Positions 1 to 63,876 of a stretch of DNA of 64,000 nucleotides are shown piece after piece. Position 1 is the first letter of the stretch, and each line of letters opens with the position of its first letter. The DNA comes from Branchiostoma floridae (taxonomy: Eukaryota > Chordata > Leptocardii > Amphioxiformes > Branchiostomatidae). The stretch lies in the NCBI RefSeq assembly GCF_000003815.2, contig NC_049994.1:18643876-18707875 (forward strand), in the 5' to 3' direction. The notes under the pieces are model-generated. The model was given only the letters and a program-made list of their open reading frames with translations. It was not told where the DNA came from and did not search any database. Made by a program: the position numbers and the translations under genes.

Positions 1-551
1 TCCAATCATTAACCACTTAAAAGAATCATGGCACTTTTGCAGTAATTATGCAAATTAGAAACTTATTTGCATAATTGGTATCAGTTAATGCCTTTATGCT
101 ACATAATGTATTTGAGTTAGAATTTGATAGAATATGGAGATCTCATTTAATTTGAGTCAAATCCATATGGAGATATTTGTAGAATTCTTTTTTTTTCCAT
201 CAGAATGATATACCCCGAGTCAGTGCTCAATTGTCCTTGCAAATCATATCATATCATATCACATCATCGGATAGGAGGCAGTTTGCCTGTGAAATCCGCT
301 TCTAACGATTACAATTAAAAACTAGTTTCCGTTTTATTTAACAATTAACAATTAAAAACGTGTCGATTTATTCAACAATTAACAATTAAAAGCTAGAATC
401 TAGAGTTTGTGAAAAGAGACTGTAATAACAATATAGAGTTCATGTTGGGCTAGGCGTATCTGCGACTTTTAACTTCTATGAAAAATGCAGTTTTGTGTGT
501 GTGTGTATGTGTGTATGTGTGTATGTGTGTATGTGTGTATGTGTGTTTGTG

Positions 552-586
<35 letters not shown>

Positions 587-870
587 GTGTTATATGTGTG
601 TGTGTGTGTGCGTGCGCGTGCGCATCTGTGTCTGTTTCTGGATATGTGTGGTCAGCATAATTTCAATGGACAATGATGATATTATTCGTTAACGTCTGCA
701 ATTGCTGTGACTGTCGCACAAGAATATCGGCATCGTTACGCGATGACTTTGGTGGCTTAATGTCACCAGTACTAGGAATATAATAAGTGGCCTTTTTACT
801 ATCATGGTAAGCTGTTTTGAGTGGAACAATTGTGGTTTGACCAGCTCTGTTTTCTGTCCTCCCCGGGCAG
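1..870. other. AT-rich upstream region, no gene seen
   Basis: AT-rich non-coding sequence with a GT microsatellite inside it. The mosaic receptor gene that starts being readable at 871 needs at least one upstream exon supplying a start codon and signal peptide, with a phase 1 junction. I could not identify such an exon here; it may be short or lie outside the window. Confidence 0.5.
488..630. repeat. (TG)n microsatellite
   Basis: Imperfect TG/TATG dinucleotide tract grading into GCGTGCGC. Open frames across it are all Cys-Val low-complexity artefacts. Confidence 0.9.
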
Positions 871-1299
871 TGACACCTTCGACAACATCACCCACGACTG
901 TCGTGCCCAGCACCGAACCCACGACTGTCGTGCCCAGCACCGAACCCACGACTGTCATGCCCAGCACCGAACCCACGACTGTCGTGCCCAGCACCGAACC
1001 CACGACTGTCGTGCCCAGCATCAAACCCACGACTGTCCTGTCCAGCACCGAACCCACGACTGTCGTGCACAGCACCAAACCCACGACTGTCGTGCCCAGC
1101 ACCGAACCCACGACTGTCGTGCCCAGCACCAAACCCACGACTGTCGTGCCCAGCACCGAACCCACGACTGTCGTGCCCAGCACCGAACCCACGACTGTTG
1201 TATCCAGCACCAAACCCATGACTGTCGTGCCCAGCACTGAATCCGCAACTGTCGGGCCCAGTACCGAACCCACGACACCGGCCACCACACATTTTACTG
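871..1299 (+). other. Mucin-like Thr/Pro/Ser exon with a 27-bp VNTR
   Basis: One symmetric phase 1-1 exon of 143 codons. It is built from a 27-bp repeat encoding nine residues, TTVVPSTEP with variants (VVSSTKP, VMPSTEP), about 14 units between about 888 and 1275. Thr and Ser density suggests an O-glycosylated stalk. Open frames on the other strand and in other frames are repeat shadows. Confidence 0.8.
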
Positions 1300-4200
1300 G
1301 TAATCGCTGGAATCAATTATCACACATTGCTCTACCTTGTAATTAGAAAAACTTTTTTTACAGTTCAAAGATAGAATTATTCATATAAGCCAGAGAGATC
1401 AACATTAATGTACTGGCTAACTTTCAGGTTACTTAGATTACAAGAAATGAGTCAGAGAAAATATTTGTTGAAATGTCCGTTAGTGAGCATGACATGACAT
1501 GCTGCTTATACATGTATTTGTTCATGGAGTACAATGTTGTTTCAGAGTAAGTTTCTCCATATCAAGGGGAAACCATTACTCTAGAGTAGGTACATTGGTG
1601 GTAGAATTTGCGCTTGTAAACTGGCTTGATTAGAACATGTTTATTTGCAGGCTGTCCTCCTGGCTACTCTGCCCATGGGGGTTCGTGCTTCAAGGCGTAC
1701 AACCAAGGCAAAACCTACAACCAGGCCAGGAAGGTGTGTGCAGCGAACAGGGGGCTTCTGGCCATGCCGAAGGACGAAGACGCGGACGACTTCTTGAGGG
1801 ACCTGAAGGACACCGTGGATCCCAACTCCCCTTTCTGGTTTGGCATGAGCGATCAGAGTGGCGAGGGAAGGTGGGTGTGGGAAGATGGGACTCCGTACAA
1901 CACAGCCGCGAACTGGCCGAATGGGGGGTGGCAGCCGGGGGAACCCAACAATGAAGGGGAAGGAGAAGTCTGCGCCAACCACTTCCGTTCCGGCTGGAAC
2001 GACGCGCCCTGCTCGACTCCACACAACTTCATCTGTCAGCTGAATGATGGTGTGTCACGTGCTATGTTTAATAAGGCCTAGGGAAAAAATTTGTTTGGCA
2101 TTGGAAATATAAGTGTCCTCATGCTAGAAGAAAGGGTATGCCCCCCAGTAAGGGGCGGTATAACCCCAACGGTGCTGTAATACACCGTATGACTCTACAT
2201 CTACTTCCTCATGAATTTCAGTTTTACTTCAGTTTTAAGATATTCTCACCCCTTGATCATTGTAGGACTAACACAATATTTCTCCCACAGCAATCGACTG
2301 CCCCCTGGGGTACCACCAGTGCGGACACGGAAATGCCTGCATCCTGGCGTGGCAGCGGTGCGACGGGCGGACGGACTGTACAGACGGGAGTGACGAGGAA
2401 AATTGTGGTAAGTTAAAATGGTATTAGATCCGCACATGTACGCAAATGGTTATTTTCTGCAAGAAATCAAATTCAAAGGACCCGATGTTCATCATTTCCT
2501 TCCTGCTCTCGTTTGTTTTGAATCTTTCACCTCTCTCTAGTGGTTTTTAGAACTGTTCTGTCGTGGTAATTAAAACTGAAAAAAATTAAGAGCAGAAATA
2601 AAATAAAACATCAGAATGGTAAGAAAAAGTTGCTGTGGTAAAGTTAACTTGGTCCTTAGATCAACACATGTACTTAAAATGGTTATTTTCTGCGAGAAAT
2701 CCTATTCAAAGGACCCGATGTTCTAATCTCCAAGCAGATCCTACGGTGCCATAATATAGTATCAAAGCTGGCCAGGGAGTATAGCCGGCTAAGGAGGTCA
2801 AACCGGCCAAGAAGTTATGCTATGAATTACGCACAGTTGATCTGGTTGGAGATTACCGATGTTCATCATTTCCTTCCTGCTCTCGTTTGTTTTGTAACTT
2901 TTAACCTCTAGTGGCTTTTAGAATTGTTCTGTGGTTATTAAAATTGAAAAAAATTAAGAGTAGCTATCTAAAATAAAACATCAAAATGGTAAGAGATAGT
3001 TGCTGCAGGCAATGGTCAGTCGGTTTTGTGGGAACAATTCGTTCAATAAAAGATTATTTTTCTTGCACATTTTCTATAAGGATATCTTTGCATGTTTGGT
3101 AGATTTCCAAATCAATGATTACTTCCGTATTGTTACAAGTGCCCCCTGTTAATACTTATAATATTGGTATGTAGATGTTCAAAGCGATTTATTTTCTTTA
3201 TTGTTATAATTTTCAGTGTGCCTGCCAACTCCTGTGGATCTGAACCTCGGCGGCAGACTTGCGATGCTGCCGAATCAGCTGGAACAGACGACGTTTGAGG
3301 AGATACAGAATTCCTCTGTCGTGGAGCTGCTCGACAGTTCGACCAGCAACGCAGAGAACCAACATCCTGAGTTCCGGGAATTCGTATCTACGGTCATCTT
3401 CCCGCGATGTCTTGTCTCCGAAGAGAACAACACATCCTGCACTTTGTCTCCACATGGAGACAACACGGCCTCGTGCATGTGAGTAGCATGAAGCGTGTCA
3501 CTGGAAATTGGGGAAATGATTTTGATTCATCAATTTCAATTCATTCATTGATTCTTCTAAGTTGAATAGTTTCATACTCAAGATTGCAATGAAAATGCTT
3601 GCGCTGAATTGCATTGTATTTGTTTTTTTTTATCTATCTTAGATTTCTGTTATTGCTAGGGGTGGTGACAAGCCTCACAATTTCAGGGTGTTTCTGAACC
3701 TGCCTGTTTTGTAGTAATTGTTGGGGGTGGTGACAAGCCTCACAATGTAAGGGTGTCTCTGTTTTGTAGGACACAACTGCTGCCGTGCCGCTCGTGGTGT
3801 GAGGAAGTTCTCCACAAGGCTGATGACCGGACGAAGAACCGGTTCCCTACCTGTGACCTGTTTCCGTCACCACCACACGCCTGTTGGAACCCGGAGCCAG
3901 ACAAGAAGTACAACCAAAGTAAGGACTCACTGACATTGTTCGATATTGTCACTCAGTCCCTCAGATTTTACCATTTCCTGTATGATCACTTCGCAGAGCA
4001 GAAAGGAACTTTCACTTCACGACACACATTCAGGAATGCATCACTTTGAACATTTTTACAATCTATATATGTCCATTCACAGTTTGCTACTATGGCAACG
4101 GTATGAACTACCGCGGTACATGGAATGAAACTTCATCCGGGGCAGATTGTGTGGAGTGGTCCGCTGCGCAGGCTGGTTTCTACCCGACCAAGTACCCCTG

Positions 4201-7200
4201 GGCTAACCTGGAGAACAACTACTGCCGCAACCCGACTGGACTCGGGCAGCCATTTTGCATGACGGAAGATGGCAGCCAGGAGGACTGTGACGTCATTCAG
4301 TGCAGTAAGTTGGCTTGTCAAGATAGGAGACATCCTCTGAACCTTGTCAAGTTTCTTAGGCCTCCCCAATTCATTTCCTTGCTTGTCAGACTTGACTTTA
4401 AAACTTAAAAAGACGTTAAAACTTAAAGGCCTTTGAAGAAATTTAAAATCAGGCAACATTTAACCGAAAAATTGTGTACGATAGCCACAGACTTACCTCT
4501 CAGAGTCTTTTCCATACTTTTGGTTCCGTTTTTTTAAAATCGAGAAGTAATGTATTTAATATACTATTGCCTTTTCTGATGTATTACTATCACCCACAGA
4601 GCTCTTTCTCTGCGAGGACCTGGGTCCTCCAAACTACGGCCACAGAACCCCTCTCAAAAGGCACTACAACGTGGGGGATAGGGTCGCGTACACCTGCAAC
4701 GTGGGGTACTCACTAAAGCCCGGGGCTCCCACCGACGTGAGGTGCACTGATGGAGGCCTCTGGCAGTATGACAAGCCCAGCTGCTCAGGTAATTGTTGTA
4801 GATTTTTTGGTTGCATAGAATAGAAATTTAATGAATATAATATGGATAGTATCAGAAAACTGGTAACGGTAACAAAAAAACTTGTGTCTTGTTGTAAAAC
4901 AAAATATGGGTATACATGTGGATCATGATCATTCTGAAATTCTATCAGAAAACTGGTGAAAAATTAACTTGTAGTCTTGTTGTAAAACAAAATATGGGTA
5001 TAGATCATGATCATTCTGAAATTCTACAGTACCTTCCGTGGGTATAAGTTATCCTAACGATGGGCATGTACTTTTTCCTTCCTTAGTGGATTTCAAGGGT
5101 AGGCTGGAAAAGGAGATACTCGATGTGTACAACGCAAACCAGGCGCCTGGGGCTGAGACTGAACCTGACAGTAAGACTGAGACTGAAACTGACACTATGA
5201 CTGAAACTGACTCTAAGACTGACGCTATGACTGAAACTGAGACTGAGACTGCAACTGAATCTAAAAATGACACTTTGACTGAAACCGAGACCGAGACTGA
5301 ATCTAAAAATGACACTATGACTGAAACTGCAAAGCTCTCTCGGTCCGTCATCCGCTTCAATGGCTCTGTCGAACAGATCGTCGACTTGGTAAGTTTTAGC
5401 ACCCGTAACACACTTGAAATCTTTGTTGGTCTACAGCAAATAGATGACCCCAGGATGTAACAAAACGCAACTAATCACTGCGATGACTTTTATTACAGGA
5501 CGAGAAGAAGGAGCTGCTGATTACCTCTGTTGCCATCAACTTCGTAAGTTGACACAATTATGTAAACTACAGGCACTTCAGAAAATATTCCATTTATGTC
5601 GTTTTCTCATTAAAAGGTTTAAGGGCTATTCTATTCTTACACATCTGAAGATATATTTGTTTTGTTTCAGACCTGGCAGGACAGCCGGCTGAAGTGGGAG
5701 CCAGAGTACTACGGGAACACTAGGAATCTCACCTTGCCGGGCAGCAGCATCTGGACCCCGGCATTTACTCTGAAGAAGAAGTATGTAATCTCTTCTTAAA
5801 TGTTACCATGGCATCTAAATTGTCAATTGACATAAGCGGTAATCTTTTTATGTGAGTTCATCTGTGATTGTAAACGTTATGAAAGAAATTTTATACTTTA
5901 AGACCATGCACAGAAACAGAGCGTTTACCAACATGCTTTCGACCAGTCATCTGGTCCTTCTCTAGTTGCCAAGCACCTTTGACCCTTTGTTGACGTCACA
6001 CTTCCGGTCTGGATGTGTGACATAGGCTTTGGGTCATTTCACCATGATAAGGACTAGAGGACTGGTAAACGTTTCGTGTACGGTCTTAAAGTATTAAATT
6101 TCTTTCATTATCATTAATCTTGTTGTGTCAAATATTACACAAATTTGTCGCCGCCCAATATAATAACATGGACAGTATTTGTGAAGATTCTGGAAACAAT
6201 TCTTTCAATAGTTCCATCATGCTGGTAGATTAACTTGAAAGTTCATCTGTGTTCGTGGAAGTCCTTCTTAATAAAGTTAAACTGCAATTTCCAACACAAA
6301 AACATGACTTACCCAAATTTGTCAATTCCAAGACTAGAGTTGATCAGTTGAAAATTTGGGTAAGTCCCATTTTTGTTTTGGAAATTGCTGTTTAACTTTA
6401 TTAAGAATGCTGGTAGATTGTAGACAAATAATGGGCCTTTGAAGGCAGATCCCAAAAGAGATTCAGTCATGAATAAAATTAACAACCCAATTCGGGTAAC
6501 AGAGGTACTGAATTGCTCTACGAGTAGCATATTTTTTCCGACATGCAAAAAATTTATTTTACTAGGTAACAGAATCTTTCAACTCTTCTCATGCCAGATA
6601 TTGTATGATTCTATCTTCAGTGCAACACAACAAATTGAGCAGTTCAAATACCTAAATGCATCTTTCCATCCGTCTTAGGTACGAAGAAACAGTCTGTGGT
6701 TGTTGAAAAAAATCCATAATGACTAGTCAAAGAAAAATGACGACACTTTGTTGACTTCTCCACAGTGCTGACCCTTTGTACCGAGGCCTGCCAAAGGACG
6801 TACCGATCGTGATCAGCACTGATGGTACGGTAACATGGAGGGTGGAGACTCTGACCAGCACCATCTGTGATGCAAACCCGTTCTTCTTCCCTGCCGACAC
6901 CATGGAATGCCACATCTGTTTCTCTGTGTCCCCTGCAATTGAAAAAACCATCGGTAAGTTTTGCAGATATCTAATGTAATGAGATAAAGTGAATCAGTGT
7001 AGTATTAGTTCAACAGAGAACTCTTGGCTTATTTTAGATTATTAATATTGCGGAATGCTGAAATGGTGCGTGTACAGAAAGGATATCTATGCATGTTATC
7101 TGCTTTTTTATTTCTTAACCTCAAATAGTTTAACACGAGTGTAGCACGAAATCCAAGACTTAAGTATATGTGAATACCTTAAAGTAAAAGGTAAAGATCA

Positions 7201-8813
7201 ATGTTGAAAAAACGGCATCTTTACAAATGCTTTAAGTAAGCGTAAAGCAGAGTAAGGCGCGTTGATGAAGCCAGACATATATATTAAACGCATTGCGGTC
7301 ATCAGAGTCGAAGGGTGTTCATTAGTCTTTTTTTTCTTATGTGTCTTTCTCATAGAATAAAAAGAAAAAAAATGAATTCTTAGACTATGTGGTTAAAATC
7401 ATTTGTTGGACACAGAATGCGGAGGGGGGAGTTCCTGTGACGTCTGGTCTCCCCCACAAGACGAAGGCGAATGGATTCGGAAGGACAAGATCTTCGCTAA
7501 AGGCGGCAAGGAGTCGTGCTTCGCTGTTTATCTGCAAAGGGTCCCGCTGTTCCACATCGCCACTACTGTTACCCCCTGTGCCATCCTGGTGGTGCTGATG
7601 ATCATCACCTTCATCATGCCCATAGACAAGGGAGACCGGATCTCCTTCGGAGTGACCATCCAGCTCTCCATGGTCGTGTCTCTCGTGTTTGTCACGGACG
7701 TACTTCCTGTGAAAGGAGCGCTGCCATATTTCGGTGAGGACAAAAAAGTTTCCCTGTTCTTCTTTTGTCCACTGGTCCTTACCTCACTCAAACCATTTAA
7801 ACACAAAATAGCCTTTGTTTAGATTCATTTAGTATTCTGGAAACTAGAAAATTAGGCTCTTGAATCACAACTGGAATTTACCTGGCCAATCTTTCGGTAA
7901 CTCCTCAGCTACCTTTCTGAGTATCTGGGAAGAGTAAGGGACATGCTACTTAAGATGTGATTCAAGAACCCCATTTTCCAATGACCAATCCCATAAAGAT
8001 GTCACGGAACATTCCGGTAACTGTTTCCCACGGATGATGTTACAGCCTCTCTGATCGTCGTGTGCATGGCGCTGATGGGACTTTTCCTCCTCTTCACCTT
8101 GTACATCATCAGCATCCACGACAAGGAGGGCAGTCTGTCTCCGATGGCGAAGACTTTCTTTCTCTACTACATGGCAAAGTACGTACTACTTAAAACAATA
8201 TTTTGGGGTCACTCATAATACACATACCAAGCCCTCCACATCACGGCTTGTTTTCTTGGTTGCCTAGATTTGTTTACAGGAGGTTGCTTTGAGTTATAAA
8301 TTGCTTTTATTTTGTGCTCAGAACGAAGTAACCATCCTTCGGGGCAGTTAAACTTCTTTTGGATGCAATGCAATGCAATTGGCAGGTTTAATTCATATTT
8401 TATCGGCTAATACTTTTTGTTGATGTTTGTTCAGGTTCCTGCTGCTCGGAGACCTCACAGAGAAGGAGGCTGCGAGCGGGGATGGAGAGGCTGGCCTGAC
8501 CGGCGGGAAGCTGGCCTGGCCTGAGCGGGCCAACCGCGTGGTCCCTGCCGATGACGTGGTGGTGACCGACGTGGAGACCCCTGTTGCTGTCCCCGAGACA
8601 ACCCGCCAGCCCACCCGCCTGGAGGCAGCCCTGGAGGAACAGACCTCCTGCCTGCGTAATCTGATCCGCATGGCTGAGGAGCAGGTGATGAAGAACGAGC
8701 CGGAGGTATCCGATTACACCCTGCTGACCCAGGTGCTCGACAGACTGTGCCTTGTCCTGTACGTCATCAGCCTTGCCGTGGCCGTGCCCATGACCATGTA
8801 TCTGGGCAAGTAA
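871..8813 (+). CDS. Mosaic receptor-channel: mucin/CTLD/LDLa/Frizzled/kringle/sushi fused to a Cys-loop ligand-gated ion channel (5' partial)
   Basis: Fourteen exons join without a frame break: 871-1299, 1651-2049, 2291-2407, 3217-3478, 3770-3918, 4083-4304, 4600-4788, 5087-5388, 5499-5543, 5671-5780, 6766-6953, 7416-7733, 8046-8178, 8435-8813 (TAA). Every junction is AG/GT and phases match throughout, giving about 1080 residues without the missing 5' end. The first ~590 residues are six extracellular modules. The last ~490 are a nicotinic-like Cys-loop receptor: a WQDSRLKW strand, an LWTP-like SIWTPAF, a C-x13-C loop ending in FPADTMEC, M1 from [13 protein letters not shown]2 starting GDRISFG, M3 ending ISIHDKE, and M4 before the stop. 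Family knowledge: such subunits form pentameric channels in the plasma membrane. Inference: a channel subunit with a large adhesive or sensing ectodomain. The ligand is unknown. Alternatives are two genes wrongly joined (the unbroken phase argues against this) or a channel exon set skipped in some transcripts. Confidence 0.85.
1651..2049 (+). other. C-type lectin domain exon
   Basis: Single 399-bp phase 1-1 exon, residues about 144-276. It opens [14 protein letters not shown] and shows the family landmarks: WFGMSD, an EPN triplet in QPGEPNN, the WND of GWNDAPC, and the closing FICQ. EPN with WND is the calcium-dependent mannose-type ligand signature, so sugar binding is plausible. The donor after residue DG is the least certain junction, chosen because it keeps phase 1 into the next exon. 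Confidence 0.85.
2291..2407 (+). other. LDL-receptor class A domain exon
   Basis: A 117-bp phase 1-1 exon encoding [33 protein letters not shown]. The six cysteines and the acidic calcium cage ([11 protein letters not shown]) are intact, as in a folding-competent LDLa repeat. Confidence 0.88.
2424..3005. repeat. Intronic tandem duplication (two ~215-bp copies)
   Basis: The segment beginning at the LDLa donor region and running through TCATCATTTCCTTCC recurs from about 2656. The second copy is interrupted by a small insertion at 2724-2855. Confidence 0.8.
2724..2855. mobile_element. 132-bp MITE with 9-bp target-site duplication
   Basis: Termini are TAATCTCCAAGCAGATC and its near-perfect inverse. 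It is flanked on both sides by CCGATGTTC (2715-2723 and 2856-2864). The uninterrupted sister copy of the intron duplication around 2480-2500 supplies the empty site, so the boundaries are secure. Confidence 0.88.
3217..3918 (+). other. Frizzled-type cysteine-rich domain over two exons
   Basis: Exons 3217-3478 and 3770-3918 (phases 1-2 and 2-1) together form a symmetric 411-bp module. Landmarks are [10 protein letters not shown] followed by an EFREFV helix, then a Cys-rich tail with [17 protein letters not shown] and ACW. This is the Fz-CRD pattern found in Frizzled, ROR and MuSK, where it binds Wnt-type ligands. The assignment rests on spacing and these motifs. Confidence 0.75.
3655..3770. 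repeat. Short intron duplication next to the second Frizzled exon
   Basis: GGTGGTGACAAGCCTCACAA occurs twice about 65 bp apart. Each copy is followed by a GTTTTGTAG acceptor-like string, so the upstream copy is a decoy acceptor. Confidence 0.6.
4083..4304 (+). other. Kringle domain exon
   Basis: A 222-bp phase 1-1 exon with six cysteines in kringle spacing: [13 protein letters not shown] at the start, [21 protein letters not shown] and CDVIQC. It directly follows the Frizzled-type CRD, the same Fz-kringle order as in ROR receptors. Confidence 0.9.
4600..4788 (+). other. Sushi (CCP) domain exon
   Basis: A 189-bp phase 1-1 exon with four cysteines: [31 protein letters not shown] and KPSCS, plus a conserved Trp (LWQYDKP). 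This is a standard complement-control-protein fold sequence. It is the last module before the channel domain. Confidence 0.88.
4838..5030. repeat. Intronic tandem duplication before the channel exons
   Basis: Two ~90-bp copies share ATCAGAAAACTGGT, CTTGTTGTAAAACAAAATAT and GATCATGATCATTCTG. Confidence 0.75.
5150..5333 (+). repeat. Coding Thr-Glu/Thr-Asp repeat inside the channel ligand-binding domain
   Basis: In-frame ACTGA-based microrepeat within exon 5087-5388 coding for runs such as [16 protein letters not shown] and [15 protein letters not shown]. It lies between the predicted N-terminal helix and strand beta 1. Confidence 0.9.
5890..6097. repeat. Hairpin element in the channel intron
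   Basis: ATACTTTAAGACC and GCGTTTACC at the left are mirrored by GGTAAACG and GGTCTTAAAGTAT at the right; about 205 bp. Likely a non-autonomous inverted-repeat element. Confidence 0.6.
6263..6408. repeat. Hairpin element in the channel intron
   Basis: Arms TTCTTAATAAAGTTAAAC and its inverse GTTTAACTTTATTAAGAA enclose a further inverted pair (TTACCCAAATTT / AAATTTGGGTAA). About 145 bp. Confidence 0.7.
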
Positions 8814-8819
8814 AGGGAG

Positions 8820-10360
8820 TGTTCCAGTTTTCTCAGCATAGTCTGAGCATAGGGGCCCCTATGCCGTAATTTTGACCCCCTATGCTGAGATTTGAACCCC
8901 CTATGCTGCGATTTTGACCCCCCCCATGCTGTCATTTGGACCCCTATACTGTGATTTGGACCGCCTTTGCTTTGATTTAGACCCAAATGCTGTGATTTTG
9001 CCCCCACATGCTTTGATTTGGACACCCTATGCTGTGATTTGGATCCTTATGTTGTGATTTGGACCTCTATGCTGCCATTTTCCCCCATATGCTATGATTT
9101 GGACCCCCGATGCTGCCATTTGCCCCATAGGCTATGACTTGGACCCCCTATGCTGCCATTTGGACCCCTATGCTGCCATTTGGACCCCCTATGCTGCCAT
9201 TTGGACCCCTATGCTGCCATTTGGACCCCCTATGCTGCCATATGGACCCCCTATGCTGTCATTTGGACCCCCTATGCTGCCATTTGGACCCCCAATGCTG
9301 CCATTTGGACCCCTATGCTGCCATTTTGCCCCCATATCCTATGATTTGGACCCCCAATGCTGCCATTTGGACCCCCTATGCTGCCATTTTGCCCCCATAT
9401 GCTACGATTTGGACCCCCTATGCTGCCATTTGGACCCCCTATGCTGTCATTTGGACCCCCTATGCTGCCATTTGGACCCCCAATGCTGCCATTTGGACCC
9501 CTATGCTGCCATTTTGCCCCCATAGTCTATGACTTGGACCCCCTGTGCTGCCTTTGCTGTGATTTAGACCCAAATGCTGTGATCTGGACCCCTGTGCTGT
9601 GATTTGGACCCTCTATGCTGCGAGTTAGACCCCCATGCTGTACTTTAGACCCCCTAATGCTGTGATTATATATGCCCCCATATCACATGTGCTGTGACTT
9701 GGATCCCCTATGCTGTGATTTACTCTCGTAGCTTTGATTTGGACAACCGATGCTGTTATTTGGACCTCCTATGCTGTAATTTAGGCCCCTCTGCTCTGAT
9801 TTGGACCAGCATGCTGTATTTTTGGCCCATATGCAGTGATTTAGAAACCATGCTCTGATTTTGCCCCCCTCAGTATGCGGTAATTTCCCCCCCCCCCTCC
9901 CTATGCTATGATTTCAGCCCCTATGCTGTGATTTGGACCCCCAGTGCTGTGATTTGGGGCCCCTATGCTGTAATTTAGACCCCTGTGCTGTGATTTTGGC
10001 CTCCTATTCTGGTTTTCGAACCCATATGGGTGTTTCTTTCTGGGGAGAACCCCTGGATCTTTCATAGTTACTTGATCGATGGTTGGCTTTATTTTAAAAG
10101 AAGAATTTAACAGATCTAGAGGGAAAACTTTACAAAATTTGTCCACCCAAATGAAAGAAATAGAGTCTTGTTGATTATGAATTGTAAACAGTTCTGAGAG
10201 GATGTGGCCCCGACTGTGACAATTGTCTTCGGCACTTTGCACGTGGCTTGTGCCGCGCAAAACTTGGCCCCTCCCCCCTCCATATGCTGTAATTTTGCCC
10301 CCTATGATTTCGGCTCTATGCTGTGATTTAGACCCCTATGCTGTGAGAACCCCGGTGTTC
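8820..10360. repeat. Degenerate ~20-bp minisatellite downstream of the receptor-channel gene
   Basis: Dozens of units resembling ATGCTGCCATTTGGACCCCC run from about 8850 to 10010, with stragglers at 10277-10350. Unit length wavers between 19 and 22 bp. The long open frames in it (for example 9094-9525) are Cys/Pro/His repeat artefacts with no start context. Confidence 0.9.
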
Positions 10361-46113: not shown

Positions 46114-49100
46114 ATGGGTGAGTCTTCCCCGTTCCGTAAGCGGCTGATCCGCTGGTTAGAGGACAATCGCGGTTTCATCATCCTGGTCTTCTGTCTACCT
46201 GCCAGCTTCTTATTCGACACCTGTCTGCAGCTCAGGTGAGCACTTTCATTTCAATTTCAGCTGTGCACTAATGTAGTACCAGATAGAAGGGAAATCAAAA
46301 GTGGCAAGGTAAATCTGAAGATGGCGGGTTTTAGTCCCTAGCAGACATCCATGTTTTGCCTACAGGAAAGACTCTTTACACCTACCTACTGATTATAGCT
46401 GTGGTTGGGGATGTCCTTTAAGATGGATCAAAAAGCTATGATCTTGATGAAGAGAGCCCGATAAAGAACTCACCAAACATGTAAGAATATCGAATCTTAC
46501 AGTCAGCTTTAACGCAACCTGTACTTACTGTACAAATAATCCATTAAACTTGTGTTTTCAGTAGAAATTATTTGTCAGTATTAGCAACAAGAAGACATGA
46601 AGATCCAATTTTATTGCATTGTCTCCCTGCAAAAGCCCCACCAACATAGCTATAGGTTACATACATGCGTTATAGCAGTGAGAAGTAACACTCCAGTCTG
46701 AAGCTCTGAGAAAGCTCTGATAGGCACACTTCAGAAACATATATATTAAGCAGGTGAGAGCCACTGCTGGTTTGTTATATCAAAGATTTTCTAACTTTTC
46801 TTCCTGTCCTCTCGCCACAGGAACTGGTTCCGTCGGACATTCCTCTCTGCTCCAGAGAAGCATGATGAACGCGTACGCGACATCCAGCGGCGAATCCGGC
46901 GGTGGGGCGACCAGCCGAAGGACAAGAGGAAACCCATGTGCACGTCACGCCCAAACTGGCTCAGTCTCTCTACAACGTTCTTCCAGAAGGTAAGATTGTT
47001 GCAGTTTTTGTGTTTGTTTGTCTTGGTGTGTGTCATTTAAATATTGCAGGGTCACAGGGTATCAGATGCTGGAAGGAAGTGTATATGTGCACATCATGCC
47101 CAAACTGGCTCAGTCTCTACAATGTTTATCCAGAAGGTAAGATTGTTGTTAGGCCAAAGTCGTGTGTGAGAGCATGTCTAACCCTCACCTGATGGGAAAC
47201 AAAAGATGATAAACCCAATAGTGAGTACCATGTAGTGCATCATTATGAATCTGGTGGTGGAATGACCAGTTAAAGGACAAGAGGAAACCCATGTGTACAT
47301 CGCGTACAAACTGGCTCAGTCTGTCTACAGCGTTCTTCCAGAAGGTAAGATTGTAGTACTAGTAAGGACAGAACTGTGTGAAAGCATGTCAAACCCTTGT
47401 TGAGCCTGATAGTGAGTGAGTGTATCACTATGAATCCGGCGGTAGGGCGACCAACCGAAGGATAAGAGGAAACCCATGTGTACATCACGCCCAAACTGGC
47501 TCAGTCTGTCTACTACATTCTTCCAGAAGGTACAGTTATTGTTACCTGCTTCGAGATAAACAGACTCATTTACAGTATTTTGTGTTTGTTTGCTTGTTGT
47601 GCAAACAGTAATCCTATTGCAATGATTGGTGACAAAGTTTGCAAGTTTTTATTTGAGTCTTTACATTTTTAATTCAGTCCCACAGATCTGTCTGAGACTT
47701 GCCCCAAATCAGGGGTGCGTACATTAATTGAGGTCCGTACTTTATTCGAGAAAATACAGTAGTCTTACAGGTTGGATAAGTTCATTCAGAAGCTCAGGAA
47801 TATGTTGACTGTGTCCTCTCTGCTATCAGCCACTACCAGCTGTTCCTGTGTTGCCATGGCAATGGCACATGGCCTCTCCATGCCTGTAGCGATGTGTTTC
47901 TGGAATTCTCCTGTCTTGTCAAACATTTCTACTCGACGGTTCAACCAGTCTGCCACGATGATGTTACCTGCCCTGTCTGTACAGATACCAAGGGGAAACT
48001 TTAGCTGACCTTCAGCTCTTCCATGACCTCCAAACCTGAGCAGAAACTGTCCATCCTCGTTGTACACAAAGACACAGTTATTTAGACAGTCTGACACAAG
48101 AATGTTCCCTTCCCTGTCCACAGTGATGTACCATGGGTACTTCATCCCCTGCTGCTGACCCACAGTTCTCACAAGTGTCCCATCTGGCCGGAACAACAAA
48201 ACTTCACCATATGGGTTGGATGAGTCTTTGGTTTGTGTGATGAGGATGTGGTTCCTCCTGGTATCCACGGCAATGCCCCTGCCCCACCCTGTTGCCTGCA
48301 GGTCAAACTTCCTCAGAACTGTGCCCTGTTTGTTGTACTGCACAGCAAACCCAACAAAGTCTGTATCCATCCCCCATAGGTCCCCCACCACCCATAGGTT
48401 CCCCTCCCCGTCCATGGCCACATCTTCTGGGTATATCTTCTGTTCACCTGACATGACTGTTGGGAACTGTCGGACAAACTTTCCCTGTAGGGTGAAGACT
48501 TGGATTCTCTGGTTCCCCCTGTCTGCTACAAATATTTCCCCTTCATCTGACACTGTCACACCAAATGGATCCCTGAACTGTCCTGTTCCTGAACCCTCTC
48601 CACCAAATGTTACCCTTTGTGGCTGGCGGCAGTTCACACACTTGAAGTCCACTCCCATCCTTACAATGTCCTGTAGACAGTCCTGACAAACACTGTGTCC
48701 ACATGGCAGCACCTTGGGCCCAGTGAACAGCTCCAGGCAGATGCTGCAGGTCACACCTTCCTTGAAATGTGTCCCCAAACTTGATGCGGCCGCCATGATT
48801 TTTTCTGCTGATGTGCTTTGACCTCAAGTCAAAGTCTCACTTGGGCCATGTTTTGCTTTGGGTAGGACTAAAAACAATAAAAGCTGAGGCTACCCAAATA
48901 AATCCCATTTGAAAAACAAACAGGGTATTAATTTTTTTAAACCCTTTGAGCTCATAATTTGAACTATTCTTGTTTTTCTTCACTTTTCATAAGAAGCTGT
49001 TAAAGCTGCATCCTGGAATATTTTTTTATTGATTTATTTGTTTGTTTGTTTGTTTGTTTGTTCTAGGACCAGTGTGAGAAGATCCCAGTAGACCTGTACA

Positions 49101-52100
49101 ACATCCTAGAATATTTGTTTATTTAGCTGTTTATTGTTTATTTATTTGTTTGTTTACAGGACCAGTGTGAGAAGACCCCAGTAGACCTGTACAACACCCT
49201 AGAATATTTGTTTATTTAGTTGTTTATTGTTTATTTATTTGTTTGTTTACAGGACCAGTGTGAGAAGATCCCAGTGGACCTGTAAAACATCCTGTCCCTG
49301 GATGAGAGAGACAGGTGTAAGTTACATCCTGGAATATTTGTTTCTTTATTTATTTGTTTGTTTGTTTACAGGACCAGTGTGAGAAGATCCCATTGGACCT
49401 GTAAAACATCCTGTCCCTGGATGAGAGAGACAGGTGTAAGTTACATCCTGGAATATTTGTTTCTTTATTTATTTGTTTGTTTGTTTACAGGACCAGTGTG
49501 AGAAGATCCCATTGGACCTGTAAAACATCCTGTCCCTGGATGAGAGAGACAGGTGTAAGTTACATCCTGGAATATTTGTTTCTTTATTTATTTGTTTGTT
49601 TGTTTACAGGACCAGTGTGAGAAGATCCCATTGGACCTGTAAAACATCCTGTCCCTGGATGAGAGAGACAGGTGTAAGTTACATCCTGGAATATTTGTTT
49701 CTTTATTTATTTGTTTGTTTGTTTACAGGACCAGTGTGAGAAGATCCCATTGGACCTGTAAAACATCCTGTCCCTGGATGAGAGAGACAGGTGTAAGTTA
49801 CATCCTGGAATATTTGTTTCTTTATTTATTTGTTTGTTTGTTTACAGGACCAGTGTGAGAAGATCCCAGTGGACCTGTACAACATCTTGTCCCTGGACGA
49901 GGAGCGGCAGGTGGTTCGGGTGGAGCCGATGGTTTCGGTTGGGGACATCACACGCTACCTCATCCCTCGGGGTAAGAGTCTGAAATATCTCAAAACAATT
50001 GGTTCTTGATTTATCTGGAAGTATGGATTAGTGCAGACCGAAAAGGAATACTGCTGGTAGTACTATACCCATGGTTCTAGTTAGTGCATTTTAGAGTCAC
50101 CACTGTGACACTAAGATTTGCTACCGCCACGCTAAATCTGGACCATTATGCTTAATTTTCAGCAAGTGTAGTCACTTTGCTGAAGTACTTACTTGTGGAA
50201 GAATGTCTGATCAAATATGGAAAATGTTTTGATATGAATGTTTTTTGTGTTGGTTGCAAATTGTAGAATGGTGGCCTGTTGTGCTGGGATTAGGCACTAC
50301 CTAGAACATTGTGTAAAAGAAAACTATACCAGAAATATATACAGTAGAAGCCAATTAATTGCATGGTCTATTTGCCAGTTAATTTCGTGCAATTATCCGG
50401 CTGGTGCAATAATGCGAAGTTATCTAGCTGGACCACACCGGTTTGAGATTTGAGGAATCTGTGCAGTTAACACTCAGAAGCGTCCGTTAATCTGTTGTGT
50501 AATTAACTGGCTTCCACTGTAATTTAGATGTTGAAAAGACACAGGTAAAACACTGAGACTGAGCTGGATCCTTGCGTCTGCTTTGATATCATAAAGTATA
50601 TGATAAGAGTAAATACCTTTTATGATTACCCAGGCTTCACCCTGGCGGTGACCCTGGAAATCGCAGATGCGACCTGTGGAGGTCTGGGGTTGGGTGCAGG
50701 GATGACCACCTACTCTCACAGGGTCAGTCCTGTTTAACGTGTACCAGGGCTGTTTCCAGGACCCGTCCCTCCTAGCCAGACTAAAAGGGCGCCCCTAGCT
50801 GCCGTCCCTACAATTCTCGGGGAGGGGGTCATTAACCCCAGCCAGCCTCTGTGTTGGGATTGAAATTTGCTTGTTGTGACCTACAATTGATCCAAACAAT
50901 CTGAATTTCAAAATTGAAAAAAAAAATGTGTGCACTGAACATGGCTGTCTTGACAAGGAAATTTAACAACATGGGCCAAAAAAATAAGATTTTGCCACGT
51001 TCCAGCAAATTTGTAAATAGCATTTATGGGGGTTTCTTTTCCAAGATTTTCTGTGGAAGGATGCTTCAAGACCCTTCTGACTTTTGTGAGCACTAACCCA
51101 CAGGGCCTTCAGCTACACCCTTCAACCCATAAAAATGGAAACCTGGAGACAGTCCTACAGTGTACAGTACCCACATTTAGGCCTGATGTTTTATTGCTCT
51201 TCCATGCATGATTTATTAGGATACACCTTGGCCGTTACCTTGGAGATTGCGGATGCGACTTGCGGAGGTTTGGGGCTAGGCGTCGGCATGACAACATACT
51301 CACACAGGGTTAGTTCTGGGTATGGTCCTTATGGGCCTGGTAAATGCAATTCCTTGGTTAGTGGAAACACCTTTTTTAATTCACAAATCTTCATACTACA
51401 ATGTAGTTGGCCTTGTAATTATTTACTCTGATTGAATGTGTAGATACTGAAAACCTTCCATACCATTGTGTTTTAACAACAAACTTAATCATTCTGCAAG
51501 CAGACCTGATTTTCACCATTCCACAAATTTATAATTAGCTGCCACAAAGCAAATTTGAAGAATTCTCTGACAATACATAACATCAACTAAGGATGTGTTA
51601 TTTACATGATTGTTAATTGGAAGACTGATAATGTACAGACATGTACTTGTACTATGGAGGATCGGAACAGATGGAGGGAAGGATTCAAGAACTTCCCAGC
51701 AACCTGAACCTCATCAGGGGCCTTCAACTTTGACATATAACCCTGTGACAATGCAACTTACTGTGCATGTGCAGTTTGAACCATGATCCAGCTTATTGAA
51801 ACTTGATATCCCACAGGTGGGCTTCTACCAGGAGGCTGTGGAATCATGGGACGTGTTGCTAGGCGACGGCTCGCTCGTGCACGCCACAAAGGACAACGAA
51901 CACTCTGACCTGTACTACGCTTTGCCCTGGTCCCATGGTTCTCTGGGGCTGTTGGTGGCCATGGAGCTCAAAATCATACCTGTCAAGCCTTATCTTAAGG
52001 TAAGCATTTATAAAGTTTTTACTGCAAAACTTATTAAAGGTATGAGATTTTACATAGTTTCGTCTACAATTATCATTGAAGGAATTTTTTGTTGATGGAT

Positions 52101-55100
52101 TTGGCATTTCTAGTCAACTTTGAAATGACAATTTTGGACACTCTGAAATGTGATTTGAGAGTTTTTGTTATGCTGTAATGTAACACATTACAGCAAGGAG
52201 GTTGTACAGTTGTGCTCAACCTTCCTGGTTGTACAGGTTTGAACAAAATAGCTCCAGAGTGCAGCATGATTCTTTGTGGCAAAAACCAACAACTAAAGAA
52301 GGCTTAATATGACTGAGGCTGGTTATCTCATGACGTTTAATCTTTTCAGCTGAAGTACATCCCCGTCCATGGTCAGAAGGCCTACTGTGACATGATGAGG
52401 GACCTCTCAGGGGCCTTGGACAAGACGGCAAAGGTGGAGACTTTATGGAGACTTAGTTCATTTTTGTTCAGAGTCATGTCCTATTTAGTCCCTAAACAGA
52501 GATTGACATACTCAAACTAGTAAAAGATTCTGTGTTGGGCATATGGCAAGGCGACACACATTGATGTCCTTCTTAAACACACTCCCAAGATTTCCTTGGT
52601 CTCCCACAGCCTCTGCTGCCTGAATGGCGTTACTTGCATTACACGAATCTATTGTCTGATTGTATTGTTTGATTGACTGAAGAAGAAAAGAAGTCTTTTA
52701 GCGCAGTCCCCACTGTTGTCTCCCCAGCTACCAGAAGGCCACGGCATTCTCTTTAGCCGAGTCGATAATTCAGTATACTTTAGGATTCTACTATCTGATA
52801 TATACACTATACAGTTTAATTGAATCAATCATGAAGAAAAGGATTCTGATTAGGTTCCGATGTTACTCCCCCCAGTTGCCAGACTACCTAAAGGCGACAG
52901 TGCATACATTTCAATTTCAATTGTCTGTTTGTACAGTTTGATTGAATATTGAAGAAAAGAGTTCTGAAGTCTTTTTGACCAGTATGTTGATATGTTTTCT
53001 CCCCCAGTTGCCAGACTACCTGGAGGCCACAGTGTTCTCTAAGGACGAGGCTGTTGTGATGGTCGGGAACTTCACTGATGTCACCGACCCCAAGGAGAAG
53101 GCTAAGGTCAGTTTTAAGAAGTATCTTAATTAAAAAGGTTTATCTTTGTTGAATATGATATCCTGCATCCAGTCTTCTTCTTCGTGTCATTACTAATCCA
53201 GTTAAAGGATTGAAGTCAAAGCACCTTTATTGCATTTGCCTAGTGTGTTGGGTTTGTGCGCTGGTGGCCTGGGTTTGGTGCTGGTTCAAATCCAGAAGGC
53301 AGGAGACTGTCAGAAAACTCTAACAGTCAGTTACTGTACAGTGGGATTCAAGCACCGCCAACTGACTAGTCTTACTGGTCTGGACTTTTCAGCCTAGCTG
53401 TTATTTTAGTGTGATGGCGGTCCAGGTTTGGCGCACGAATTTGAAACCAAGGAGCCAGGATACTGACTTGCCTCTTATGTTTCAGATAAACCACATGACC
53501 AGCTAGTACAAGCCCTGGTTCTACAAGCATGTAGAGATATTCCTAGCGCACAACAGTTACTATAGTTTATGTATTCATTTATTCAGAAATGTACATTACA
53601 CAGACTCTCAGGCAGTGTTGCTGATATTGGAGTCCACAAGCAGGGACAAACAAATACACAAGTTAGAATGGTCAGTATAATCATTTCAGATTCTATTAAA
53701 CACCTTTTTCACCCCACCCAGATTAACCATGTGGCCAGCTGGTACAAGCCCTGGTTCTACAAGCACGTGGAGACTTTCCTACAGAAGGGAGAGGACTATG
53801 AGTACATCCCTCTCCGGGAGTACCTCCTGTATAAACAGTATAGTAACATATATTATAAACCCATTTTCCTCCCAGATCAACCATGTGGCCAGCTGGTACA
53901 AACCCTGGTTCTACAAGCACGTGGAGACCTTCCTACAGAAGGGAGAGGACTATGAGTACATCCCTCTGCGGGAGTACCTGCTGAGGCACAACCGAGCCAT
54001 CTTCTGGGTCGTGGAGTCCATGATTCCCTTCGGAAACAACCCCATCTTCAGGTGGGTCATTCTTTTTATTTTACCTTAGTTTAGAAATCAAACTTAATGC
54101 ATTTACCTTCTGTTGGTCCTTAATATGCAACAAAGTTCATTGTCATTACATGTGGCCCCTATGTTGGTCAATGGTGATCATGGTAAACCCAAACTAACAT
54201 CAACCCTACACCATTTAAGCTATGGCTAATACCTGTATATTATACTATATAAATTATGAGAATGACATAAGTTACATCTGTAAGCTGACTCAGTTGACTC
54301 ACCCAGTGGCTCCAAATGGCAGCTGCTCCAGACACTTGCAATTTAGCCCTGCTTATTGTACGCTCCTCGCAATTCTGCCCCTGGCTGCAATGAGAGAGTA
54401 GTCGACTCCTCCATTAATAACAGCTCTGTCTGAGATTTCTAAAATGTTTTTGATATACTTCTTGATTAGTCAAATAATCTGAAGCAAAGAATGGTGGTCT
54501 CACAATGTTTATATGCTAAGCCTAATTTGCTATCCCCCCCCCCCTCCCCCATGCAGGCTGCTGTTTGGCTGGCTGTTGCCCCCCAAGCCTGCCTTCCTCA
54601 AGTTCACCACCACCCCAGGGGTCAGGGCCATGACCTTTGCTAAACAGGTAACCTCTCACCTTTAACCTTTGTGTCTGATATAGAAACTGCTAGTAACCTC
54701 CTACCAGTATATTACGTGCATCTTGTCTGTTGCCATGATGACCAGAGATTTATTTTTCAATACATGAGTTTTTGGTGACCATCTGTCACCTTCTTCAATG
54801 AGGGCAATACTGACTGGTTCTATTTGGCAGAGTAGGTAGGTGTGGCTACAGCAGTGTTTATAATGTGGTCCCAAATGTCACCAAGCTTGTATTCCCCCTC
54901 ATCTCTACTGTATACAACGTTTAGCTTTGTTATCCAGTCACTTCAAAGCCCCTGGCTGTGAAGAGAAACTCAGAAAGTAGTCAGCCCAATCAATAATCCA
55001 ATCTATTCGGTGTTTCAGGACATACTGGAGAAGTCTGTAAACAGAGAGGAGCAGCTGTTCAACACCTACCCCTTTCTTAATTAACCCCTGTCTAATCTGT

Positions 55101-58393: not shown

Positions 58394-58523
58394 TACTGAG
58401 GTCCAATCCCTGACCGGTCTCATTGCAGTATCTTTAATGGGAAAGGCTCTTAACTCCTATTTCCTTACTCGAATCAGGTGAAAATGAGTATTTACCAGCT
58501 TCACTTACATAGGGACGTCTTGC

Positions 58524-58623
58524 NNNNNNNNNNNNNNNNNNNNNNNNNNNNNNNNNNNNNNNNNNNNNNNNNNNNNNNNNNNNNNNNNNNNNNNNNNNNN
58601 NNNNNNNNNNNNNNNNNNNNNNN
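58524..58623. other. Assembly gap of 100 N
   Basis: Exactly 100 ambiguous bases, the usual placeholder for a gap of unknown size. DHCR24 is cut before it and the zinc-finger sequence starts immediately after it, so material is probably missing. Confidence 0.98.
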
Positions 58624-60422
<1,799 letters not shown>

Positions 60423-60440
<18 letters not shown>

Positions 60441-60762
60441 TGTTGTGCTTGGGTCGCTCCCCAGAGGTACGCTGCCAACACGTCTGGCATTCGTTAGTAT
60501 TGGAACGATCGGCATTTGAATATTCGCACACTTTATGTGCGCGATTTCTGATTGGCTGTTGGCTCCAAGCCCCCCTCGCAAAGAACCATCAAGGTGGAAA
60601 TCGAACACACAAAATCATGTGTACAGTACGTAATCGACGGAACACTACTTCTATCTTTCCCGCATTAGTGACGTAAGGACCGATCGTTCCAATGCTAACG
60701 AATGCCAGACGTGTTGGCAGGAGCAGAGCGACCAAAGCACAACACGGCTGGATTCCAGGCTA
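60423..60762. mobile_element. 340-bp MITE inside the zinc-finger sequence
   Basis: About 80-bp near-perfect arms starting TAGCCTGGAATCCAG and including GCCAACACGTCTGGCATTCG. ACATCGTAA is duplicated at 60414-60422 and 60763-60771. It interrupts a finger after LDQHR. Confidence 0.92.
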
Positions 60763-61938: not shown

Positions 61939-62958
61939 GTAAGACTTACAAACGTGCTTTCAAGTATTCTGATACAGATTGTAAGAGTTAGGGGTCATTT
62001 CTGTGGGACAGTAATCTAGTAAGTATTTAAATATCATAATTTATAGGCATTTTCTTGATGTAAATACGGCAGAAATAAAGGGGGAGGGGGCGAAGCCAAA
62101 CATACGTGAGACCCTCGCCACCAAGTCAGTTTGTTTTCTTCCATATGAAACCGTTTGACCTTTTCTTGGTGTACATTCGAGTTTTGTGCATTGTAATAAT
62201 GATGGAAAACTATGATAGGGACTTAGATCTGAGCCACTATACACCAAAGGAGACATTTTAATCACTCGATACAAGCGATCCATTTCAGACAGCAACTTTT
62301 CCATGAAGAAAGTAGTCTGCAATTCAAACACGATGAAAAGGGAGCAGACAACCTGGGTATATGATGTAGCCAACTGTCTTTTTCAGTGATAAATTCATGA
62401 TGAGGATTTGTATGAGGATTTATATGTATGGATCTCAACGCAGTTTTCTGCATATTGTCTCAATTGTCAACTACAAGATTTTTTGTTTACAAAAATTGAT
62501 AACATCGTATATTCCCAATTTACTTATCTGTAGTCTTAAAAAAGTTATGTTCACGTTTGTTTTTGTTTGGTTGAACCTTTGTTTATTCATGAAAGCTCAG
62601 ATCGACCTGCAGGCCGCTTTTCATTGCGGTCATGAGGGAAGAGGCAAAGTATGTACAGTTTATAGAGGTCAAGGGTCACAAGTGCGCTGGATATAACAGC
62701 TGTCAATTTGTTTGTTTGTTTGTTTGTTTGTGCCTTTATTCGTACCTGATCATTAGAAATGGTGCAGAAATCGAAATTGTTGTCGTATCTTCTAGAATTT
62801 TTTTTTAAACCTGAAAATCAGGTGATCTTACAGAATTTTAAACGGGTAAAATATGTGGACAGAATAATGTATTATATATCTACGCCCGTTTCCATTTTTT
62901 TAAAGAAAGAAAGCAAGAAAAAAATCATCATCTAAACAATATTTTTACTGTTTTAGAG

Positions 62959-63876
62959 ATGGCGGAGTTCACATGTGTGCCTCCTGCTAAAGAGCTTAAC
63001 GTGGAACAAGCTGTGAACATCAAAGAGGAGCCGACAGGAGACACTGGATGGCAGCAGGATGAACAGGAAACGTACAACGAGGACCAGGAAACCTACGACT
63101 ACTTTGGCTTAAGCGAACCAACTGGACATCATTGGAACGAGACTTACAACAGTTGTGAGCAGTCAGCAGACACGAGATGGCAGCAGGAAACGTGTGACGT
63201 GAACTTTCCCCAACCTGACAACACATCAACCTCACAGGTACAGGAGAGCAGAGACAATAAGGGAAGGCATCTGGTTAAAAACACCGATGAGAAACCCTAC
63301 ATGTGTGTGGAGTGCGGGTACAGTACAGCCAATAAGGCTCACCTATCCCGACATAGGAGAACTCATACAGGGGAAAAACCCTACAAGTGCGACCAGTGTG
63401 ACTATTCTGCTGCAGATAAAACTACGTTTGACAGACATCTAGCAAAGCACAGTGGCGAGAAACGCTACATATGTGAGGAGTGCGGGTACAAAACAGCTCG
63501 AAAGTCTCACTTATCCCAACATGTGAGAACCCATACAGGAGAAAGACCCTACAAGTGTGACCAGTGTAACTTTTCAGCGTCAAAGAAGTGTAATTTAAAT
63601 GAACATCTATCAAAAAAGCATTCTGGCAAGAAACCCTACCTGTGTAGGGAGTGCGGATACAAGACAGCTTATAAGTCGGCCCTATCCCAACACATGCGAA
63701 AACATACCGGAGAAAAACCCTACAAGTGTGATCAGTGTGACTATGCTGCTGCACAGAAGTCCAACTTAGACCAACATCTTGTAAAACACTTCGGTGAGAA
63801 GAAACCCAACATGTGTAGAGTACAGAAGGACTTGTCACAACACATCACAACCCATATAGAGCAAGGTGAGACGTGA
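62959..63876 (+). CDS. C2H2 zinc-finger protein, intact
   Basis: 305 residues in one exon, preceded by an acceptor (GTTTTAG/AG) directly before ATGGCGGAG. The acidic N-terminus (about residues 1-108) has no finger and includes NIKEEPTG, a match to the SUMO consensus. Six Kruppel-type fingers follow from about residue 112: [55 protein letters not shown] and [11 protein letters not shown], joined by HTGEKPY-type linkers and alternating in type. A seventh lost its second Cys (NMCRVQKDLSQHITTH). Predicted nuclear DNA-binding factor. It is closely related to the broken array upstream and may show what that locus once encoded. Confidence 0.9.
   Translation: MAEFTCVPPAKELNVEQAVNIKEEPTGDTGWQQDEQETYNEDQETYDYFGLSEPTGHHWNETYNSCEQSADTRWQQETCDVNFPQPDNTSTSQVQESRDNKGRHLVKNTDEKPYMCVECGYSTANKAHLSRHRRTHTGEKPYKCDQCDYSAADKTTFDRHLAKHSGEKRYICEECGYKTARKSHLSQHVRTHTGERPYKCDQCNFSASKKCNLNEHLSKKHSGKKPYLCRECGYKTAYKSALSQHMRKHTGEKPYKCDQCDYAAAQKSNLDQHLVKHFGEKKPNMCRVQKDLSQHITTHIEQGET

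Follow-up and report, generated by a model that had tools for sequence, protein, structure and literature searches.

The window analysed here, a stretch of 64,000 nucleotides of the Branchiostoma floridae genome (C16:18643876-18707875), carries at 871-8813 the channel-bearing part of a gene that, in our judgement, probably encodes a single-chain Cys-loop subunit of about 1757 amino acids. This would be an accessory-type subunit with an anchoring ectodomain of its own, belonging to a large family with 52 linked loci, at which relatives of the ectodomain modules lie upstream of the channel exons on the same strand. The predicted chain would be composed, from the N-terminus, of a signal peptide, two LRP-type beta-propellers each with a mucin-like stalk, a C-type lectin domain, an LDL-receptor class A (LDLa) domain, a degenerate Frizzled (Fz) cysteine-rich domain (CRD), a kringle, a sushi domain, the ligand-binding domain, four membrane helices (M1 to M4) and an intracellular loop. 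The genome searched comprises 513.4 Mb on 431 contigs.

Inside the window the gene consists of 14 forward-strand exons, all with GT-AG borders (the last one closing on the stop codon) and consistent phases, which are read in one open frame, as an earlier sequence-only reading of this DNA had described, down to a single TAA at 8811-8813. The first of them (871-1299, phase 1-1) encodes a Thr/Pro-rich mucin-like stalk with about 14 copies of a 9-amino-acid repeat, its DNA containing a 27-bp tandem repeat of 14.3 copies at 890-1276. It is followed by exons for the C-type lectin (1651-2049; Pfam Lectin_C, 6.7e-19), the LDLa domain (2291-2407; Ldl_recept_a, 8.8e-8), the two halves of a Frizzled-like CRD (3217-3478 and 3770-3918, the second containing PCRSWCEEV), the kringle (4083-4304; Kringle, 1.2e-15) and the sushi (CCP) domain (4600-4788; Sushi, 2.4e-7), where all Pfam matches given were obtained on the spliced protein and score above the curated cut-offs. 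The lectin, LDLa, kringle and sushi modules of the sequence-only reading are thereby recovered; its Frizzled module turned out to be degenerate and is recognised only by a profile match to family members.

After a sushi-channel intron of 298 bp (4789-5086), the channel half begins with an exon (5087-5388) that opens at the alpha-1 helix of the ligand-binding domain without a signal peptide and continues through an acidic Thr/Glu/Asp repeat (5153-5329) into beta-1. Two short exons of 45 bp (5499-5543) and 110 bp (5671-5780), sizes which we take to be those of nicotinic acetylcholine receptor (nAChR) genes, rest on their splice borders and on the mapping of paralogues, the second also on an alignment to nAChR chains that places the loop D Trp and the loop A region in it. 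The exon at 6766-6953, covered by the Pfam ligand-binding-domain match and by the alignment to nAChR, contains the Cys-loop, the exon at 7416-7733 the end of the ligand-binding domain, M1 and the M2 pore helix, with GDRI(S/A)FGVTI in the family rows aligned, and the exons at 8046-8178 and 8435-8813 contain M3 and the intracellular loop, M4 and stop codon, respectively, both being supported by splice borders and paralogue mapping. The Pfam families Neur_chan_LBD (PF02931; 1.1e-25) and Neur_chan_memb (PF02932; 1.3e-14) match above their curated cut-offs, the latter over the M1-M2 and M4 exons, so that the complete Cys-loop channel with four membrane helices, which had been proposed, is confirmed.

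Every module exon, or in the case of the Fz domain the exon pair, is of phase 1-1. Such modules splice in frame by default, and the unbroken frame is therefore weak evidence for a single gene, which we do not accept as proof. Lancelets are described, in the excerpted text of PMC4284660, to have very high exon shuffling biased to 1-1 exons. With the frame alone being weak, the case for one gene rests on genome-wide evidence.

The gene does not begin at 871, where the sequence-only reading has its first exon; 12 more predicted exons, for a signal peptide and a pair of LDLR class B propellers, lie 5' of the window. Joined together, the 26 exons (14 in the window) give 1757 amino acids with a single terminal stop over a gene of about 35.5 kb. 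The ectodomain amounts to about 1260 amino acids in this model, and the shared core from LDLa to sushi to about 310. Both five-exon propellers are located in the nearer 20 kb of the 40 kb 5' of the window (L009-L012), and each is followed by a mucin-like exon, the second of which is 871-1299. The second propeller matches Pfam Ldl_recept_b (1.8e-18) and, in the PDB, LRP2, LRP4 and LRP6. Propeller and mucin exon form a tandem duplication (L010 2265-9700; L009 4361-9195 together with window 871-1299), the first copy having no lectin exon after it; this could have arisen by duplication within the gene or come from the assembly.

Across about 39 kb (L011, L010, L009 and window 1-8813), a strict search for signal-peptide start exons of phase 1 yields a sole start exon, MAGLRGWYKVFILVVFFACLTSADQ, at the far 5' end (C16:18617199-18617274). 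This bears on the reading that two adjacent genes, one for a multi-module protein (secreted or in the membrane) and the other for a Cys-loop channel, are joined here only by the phase-1 frame, for which phase 1-1 modules would make a continuous frame expected without any fusion. A relaxed scan gives several start-like open reading frames (ORFs) with phase-1 ends in other introns: at 1499-1589, several from 1637 that enter the lectin exon in another frame, one of which (1637-1733) has a fair donor (AAG/GTGTGT), others at 2446/2485-2542 with poor donors, and from 5444 on, across the 45-bp exon in another frame. AATAAA motifs within the gene at 2597, 2972 and 3045 would fit two genes as well. None of these ORFs passed the strict scan, which was also empty throughout three paralogue loci. 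A signal-peptide start between sushi and channel was found by neither scan in the intron at 4789-5086. AATAAA and ATTAAA are also absent from this intron; as the channel stop is likewise followed by 1.7 kb without such a signal (ATTAAA first occurs at 10536 and AATAAA at 10673), that absence is uninformative.

The distribution of the modules across the genome argues more strongly against two genes. At least 56 loci, the window included, match the channel protein over the M1-M2 exon, which is a lower bound, the best 97 of 488 candidates having been scored; at least four further channel loci (C7:19050656, C18:5352550, C18:4634188 and C11:56929) matched M4 only and were left uncounted. Within 45 kb of the channels, 77 of 103 module matches, from a search in which the best 95 of 2092 candidates were scored, lie upstream on the same strand, none lies downstream on the same strand, and seven lie downstream on the opposite strand. 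This tally includes the window's own five module matches and covers 103 of the 104 module rows, one C-type lectin row being omitted. Among the matches listed, same-strand upstream positions are held by 21/21 first halves of the Fz domain, 31/32 kringles, 7/7 sushi domains, 3/4 second Fz halves and 15/39 lectins. Kringles are common genome-wide (528 candidates, of which the best 150 were scored and all 150 match), and a chance proximity of common modules is disfavoured, the listed Fz, kringle and sushi relatives lying almost all upstream of channels.

Relatives of the lectin, Fz, kringle or sushi domain are found at most 45 kb upstream on the same strand at 39 of the 56 channel loci (37 within 15 kb); at two of the linked loci (C11:103883 and C3:9265562) the modules are 25-29 kb off and may be those of another gene. 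A Pfam Fz match lies at most 10 kb upstream on the same strand at 12 of the remaining 17 loci and scores above the cut-off at nine of the 12, in a tally of 150 rows of the 151 Pfam Fz matches. Around these 17 loci no Fz match occurs in other orientations at 10 kb, and seven occur downstream on the same strand at 30 kb, in tandem arrays. One more locus, picked by hand and without a control, has a Pfam kringle 7.6 kb upstream (C8:17304905). In total, 52/56 channel loci have modules upstream on the same strand, or 51/55 without the window. The control, comprising the best 30 rows of the Pfam channel search, none of them from the window family, has 0/104 module matches within 45 kb on either side; its rows are not 30 independent genes (ten belong to a single cluster on C2, and some rows are exons of the same gene), and it was compared only with the matches of the module-relative search, not with the Pfam Fz matches.

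Three paralogues show the same arrangement exon by exon. L037 and L039 carry the lectin, LDLa, Fz (two exons), kringle, sushi and channel exons in the order of the window gene, and L038 follows this order from LDLa onward, with no lectin match there. Lectin exons with AG/GT borders are 399 bp long with 91% identity in L037 and 393 bp with 58% in L039. All three have the 117-bp LDLa exon, the 262-bp exon and the 149-bp stretch of the Fz domain, and the sushi exon. Of the 38 exons mapped in all (13 in L037, 12 in L038 and 13 in L039), 33 show the two expected borders where these are projected, 29 of them with the window's length. The five failures are the M1-M2 acceptor of L037, the first channel exon of L038 and, in L039, the acceptor of the second Fz exon, whose AG is missing from its projected position, the first channel exon and M4. 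Lengths differ from those in the window for the first channel exon of L037 (335 vs 302 bp), sushi (192 vs 189 bp) and M4 (388 vs 379 bp including the stop) of L038, and the lectin exon of L039 (393 vs 399 bp). In L038 and L039 the first channel exon is a short form that does not contain the acidic repeat, and in L039 it closes at a GC donor. A further sushi-like exon precedes the lectin exon of L039 on its 5' side, and N-termini therefore vary in the family.

The joining of modules and channel in one gene, as first proposed, is supported by the single upstream signal-peptide exon, the lack of any start exon in the scans between sushi and channel, the three paralogues and the 52/56 linked loci on many contigs, together with the lack of module linkage for the best 30 rows of other channel matches. 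Most likely, then, the window gene belongs to a large family and does not represent two neighbouring genes, a separate pair of genes being disfavoured by the start-exon scans and by the linkage at paralogues to a degree that makes it highly improbable.

Among the ectodomain modules, the Fz domain has no Pfam match on the spliced protein and no PDB match by profile. In distant family members the Fz domain is split over two exons; Pfam accepts three of these after manual joining (1.3e-13, 5.7e-19 and 4.6e-15), and a profile of the window type matches the distant members' Fz domain with 98.6% probability in a profile-profile comparison. The aligned stretch retains five of nine Fz cysteines, and the tenth of the ten expected is probably retained beyond it. 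As judged from these profiles, the window module is a degenerate Fz CRD, and Wnt binding by it is not relied on. The degeneracy weakens the Wnt part of the ligand idea in the sequence-only reading, by which sugars, Wnt-like ligands, matrix or microbes could gate or cluster the channel.

The combination of EPN and WND is the pattern of Ca2+-dependent mannose-type binding. The Lectin_C match of the window gene contains both motifs, and across five distinct lectin loci EPN is found in the window, L036 and L039, EPD in L034 (the L037 locus) and L035, and WND in all five. The sugar part of the ligand idea thus receives some support from the predicted lectin. In kringles, the lysine site consists of DxD and a Trp; the window kringle does not have the residues of a lysine-binding kringle, reading NPTGLG vs NPDAD in plasminogen kringle 4 and PFC vs PWC. 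Its PDB matches are the kringles of plasminogen, HGF and ROR2, the first two scoring above ROR2.

The channel half has its best PDB match in neuronal nAChR alpha chains (E 1.8e-32), followed by further nAChR chains and 5-HT3A. A pair of cysteines with 13 residues between them and FPxD (FPAD in the window) aligns to the nAChR Cys-loop. Acidic -1' without Pro-Ala at -2'/-1' is the rule for cation channels, and the window pore (-2' to 20') follows it, with acidic residues at -1' and 20', Leu at 9' and GDR at -2' to 0', the latter in the window and all family rows aligned. From these residues a cation channel is predicted, and the subunit looks cation-selective. The nAChR agonist site is formed by an aromatic box (loop A Tyr and loop B Trp) and the vicinal cysteines of loop C. 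The window channel retains the loop D Trp and lacks the agonist-binding residues of an alpha-type subunit, LYN being replaced by LKK, GSW by SVS and YECC by a shortened ESC. All three changes recur in the family rows aligned. For this reason the protein is probably no classical acetylcholine-binding alpha subunit and is probably either accessory or responsive to another ligand.

The layout of the exons, the domains, the linkage in the family and the lost agonist residues are read from the sequence itself. We infer that the gene is expressed and that a pentamer of such subunits, either alone or combined with canonical nAChR subunits, would form a cation channel. The N-terminal stalks would then extend outward from the upper side of the ligand-binding ring, where they could bind glycans, matrix or partner-cell proteins and so anchor or cluster the channel. 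A fusion that is equally real might instead use its ectodomain as a sensor, a sugar, a microbe surface or an LRP/Wnt-type ligand opening the channel, which would make this a family of ionotropic recognition receptors. A sensor would fit the loss of the loop A, B and C agonist residues, seen both in the window gene and in the aligned family exons, the EPN or EPD with WND in all five lectin loci, the large family with its varied N-termini, and an ectodomain that evolves faster than the channel in comparison with the nearest paralogue. However, coupling to the pore through a flexible mucin stalk and an acidic linker would presumably be poor, the same residue losses are explained by an accessory or anchoring role, and an omega near 1 can equally mean relaxation, so we consider direct gating by the ectodomain unlikely. 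A broader proposal, by which lancelets would have at least 50 ionotropic recognition receptors that have lost the transmitter site and whose gating or clustering depends on ligands of a diversifying lectin/LRP-propeller/Fz/kringle/sushi ectodomain, strikes us as possible yet doubtful; if true, this receptor family of at least 50 members would be the eukaryotic counterpart of channels with extra N-terminal domains, reported only from prokaryotes.

The substitution rates also bear on whether the locus has an organised function at all, or is a decaying or rarely expressed by-product of the rampant exon shuffling in lancelets. Relative to the closest paralogue, L037, the channel has an omega of 0.32 and the ectodomain, which over this shorter comparison looks relaxed or diversifying, one of 0.95. 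The dS of the ectodomain is lower there (0.041 vs 0.138 in the channel), which may be gene conversion. Relative to L038, omega is 0.57 and 0.54 for the two halves, both near 0.55, and over this longer comparison both halves look constrained. These values exclude the exons 871-1299 and 5087-5388 and the locus L039. A by-product would agree with the reported bias of the shuffling to 1-1 exons, with the degenerate Fz domain and with the ectodomain omega near 1, but the frame of the window gene is open throughout, the channel in comparison with L037 and both halves in comparison with L038 have omega values well below 1, and L039 keeps the same layout at roughly 58-79% identity for most exons. We therefore regard a locus without organised function as very unlikely.

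Several observations weigh against a single gene for an accessory subunit with an anchoring ectodomain, in addition to the small weight of the frame, the internal AATAAA motifs, the uninformative intron and the high ectodomain omega in comparison with L037. The family count includes the window itself, both searches scored a part of their candidates, and four of the 56 channel loci have no module by these searches. Across 29 loci, the identity of the kringle to that of the window does not correlate significantly with the identity of the channel (Spearman rho 0.22, p 0.24; with two rows dropped, rho 0.33, p 0.09). The start-exon scan is home-made and its sensitivity uncalibrated. Neither a propeller nor a start exon was found in the 10 kb that precede the closest paralogue; the N-terminal part is therefore the least certain portion of the gene and may be private to the window gene. 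Finally, the LDLa domain of LEV-10, an acetylcholine receptor (AChR)-clustering protein of C. elegans, is reported as dispensable for clustering in the excerpted text of PMC9083331.

Other features were noted near these subjects. A second branch of the channel family is found in tandem arrays (C230 229505-389995, C11 19757787-19799066 and C2 27904903-27967233), in which nine of 11 channel loci have an upstream Pfam Fz match, seven of them above the cut-off. Dense clusters of Pfam Fz matches, mostly to the first half of the profile, lie on C3 (2.02-2.07, 11.82-11.83 and 12.86-12.88 Mb), C4 (10.19-10.23 Mb) and C290, away from the 56 channel loci, and from their sequences are predicted to be another large Fz family. 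Further 5' of the signal-peptide exon is a gene that, by eye, we presume to be doublecortin-kinase-like. A minisatellite starts 43 bp after the channel stop, with a 21-bp unit (CCCCTATGCTGCCATTTGGAC) in 33.9 copies at 8856-9556; called alternatively as a 41-bp unit, it extends to 9662 (8856-9662). Elsewhere in the window, 47789-48823 on the reverse strand holds a single-ORF protein with RING and NHL-like regions, TRIM-like by eye. ORFs at 51787-57000, which we assume to resemble a DHCR24-type flavin adenine dinucleotide (FAD) oxidoreductase, contain by eye repeated stretches, VASWYKPWFYKHVETFLQKG twice and VFQDIVLPMTVLEKSVD three times. C2H2 zinc-finger arrays are present at 58513-60516 and 62842-63873 on the forward strand, with a stretch near 58.5 kb that is read as unknown.

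Searches of open-licence PubMed Central papers turned up no description of such a channel; predicted gene models of this layout may already exist unremarked in RefSeq or UniProt. In excerpts, PMC6354393 describes amphioxus-specific nAChR expansions without the word kringle, PMC4795631 mentions Branchiostoma channels without kringle or lectin, PMC6896357 contains no amphioxus, Branchiostoma, kringle or lectin, and PMC2575513 no channel, acetylcholine or kringle. The sequence-only reading had recognised the architecture of an ectodomain joined to a channel and had missed the two propellers, the size of the family and the loss of the canonical agonist site. If real, a large family of this kind would show exon shuffling yielding a new receptor class, and it raises the question of what gates a Cys-loop subunit without an agonist box.

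Compared with nAChR and 5-HT3 receptors, the window channel has the ligand-binding domain, the FPxD Cys-loop, M1 to M4, the 9' Leu and the acidic -1' in common, but adds the multi-module N-terminal ectodomain and lacks the Tyr of loop A, the Trp of loop B and the vicinal cysteines of loop C. The ROR and MuSK receptor kinases have a Fz CRD followed by a kringle, and ROR2 kringles are among the PDB matches of the window kringle; the window protein differs in having no kinase domain by Pfam, a degenerate Fz domain and a kringle nearer to plasminogen and HGF than to ROR2. DeCLIC, a prokaryotic pentameric ligand-gated ion channel (pLGIC), likewise has an extra domain before the ligand-binding domain, its modules differing by name from those of the window protein. 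Extra N-terminal domains of prokaryotic pLGICs are stated, in the excerpted text of PMC9897478, not to be observed in any eukaryotic homologue, an absence that the lancelet family would break.

In vertebrates, LRP4 with its propeller and MuSK with its Fz and kringle domains are separate AChR-clustering proteins. The clustering proteins LEV-9, LEV-10, Hig and Hasp have modules overlapping with those of the window protein (CCP/sushi and LDLa), but they are separate and act in trans. As described in the excerpted text of PMC9083331, LEV-9 (eight CCP domains) and LEV-10 (LDLa and CUB domains) cluster AChRs in C. elegans from outside the cell; Pfam finds no CUB domain in the window's spliced protein. 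By this analogy, the lancelet channel chain would carry in cis the modules that other animals supply as separate AChR-clustering proteins, an arrangement that could tie the channel directly to its surroundings and that offers a test of receptor clustering, elsewhere achieved via separate proteins, being built into the channel chain itself.

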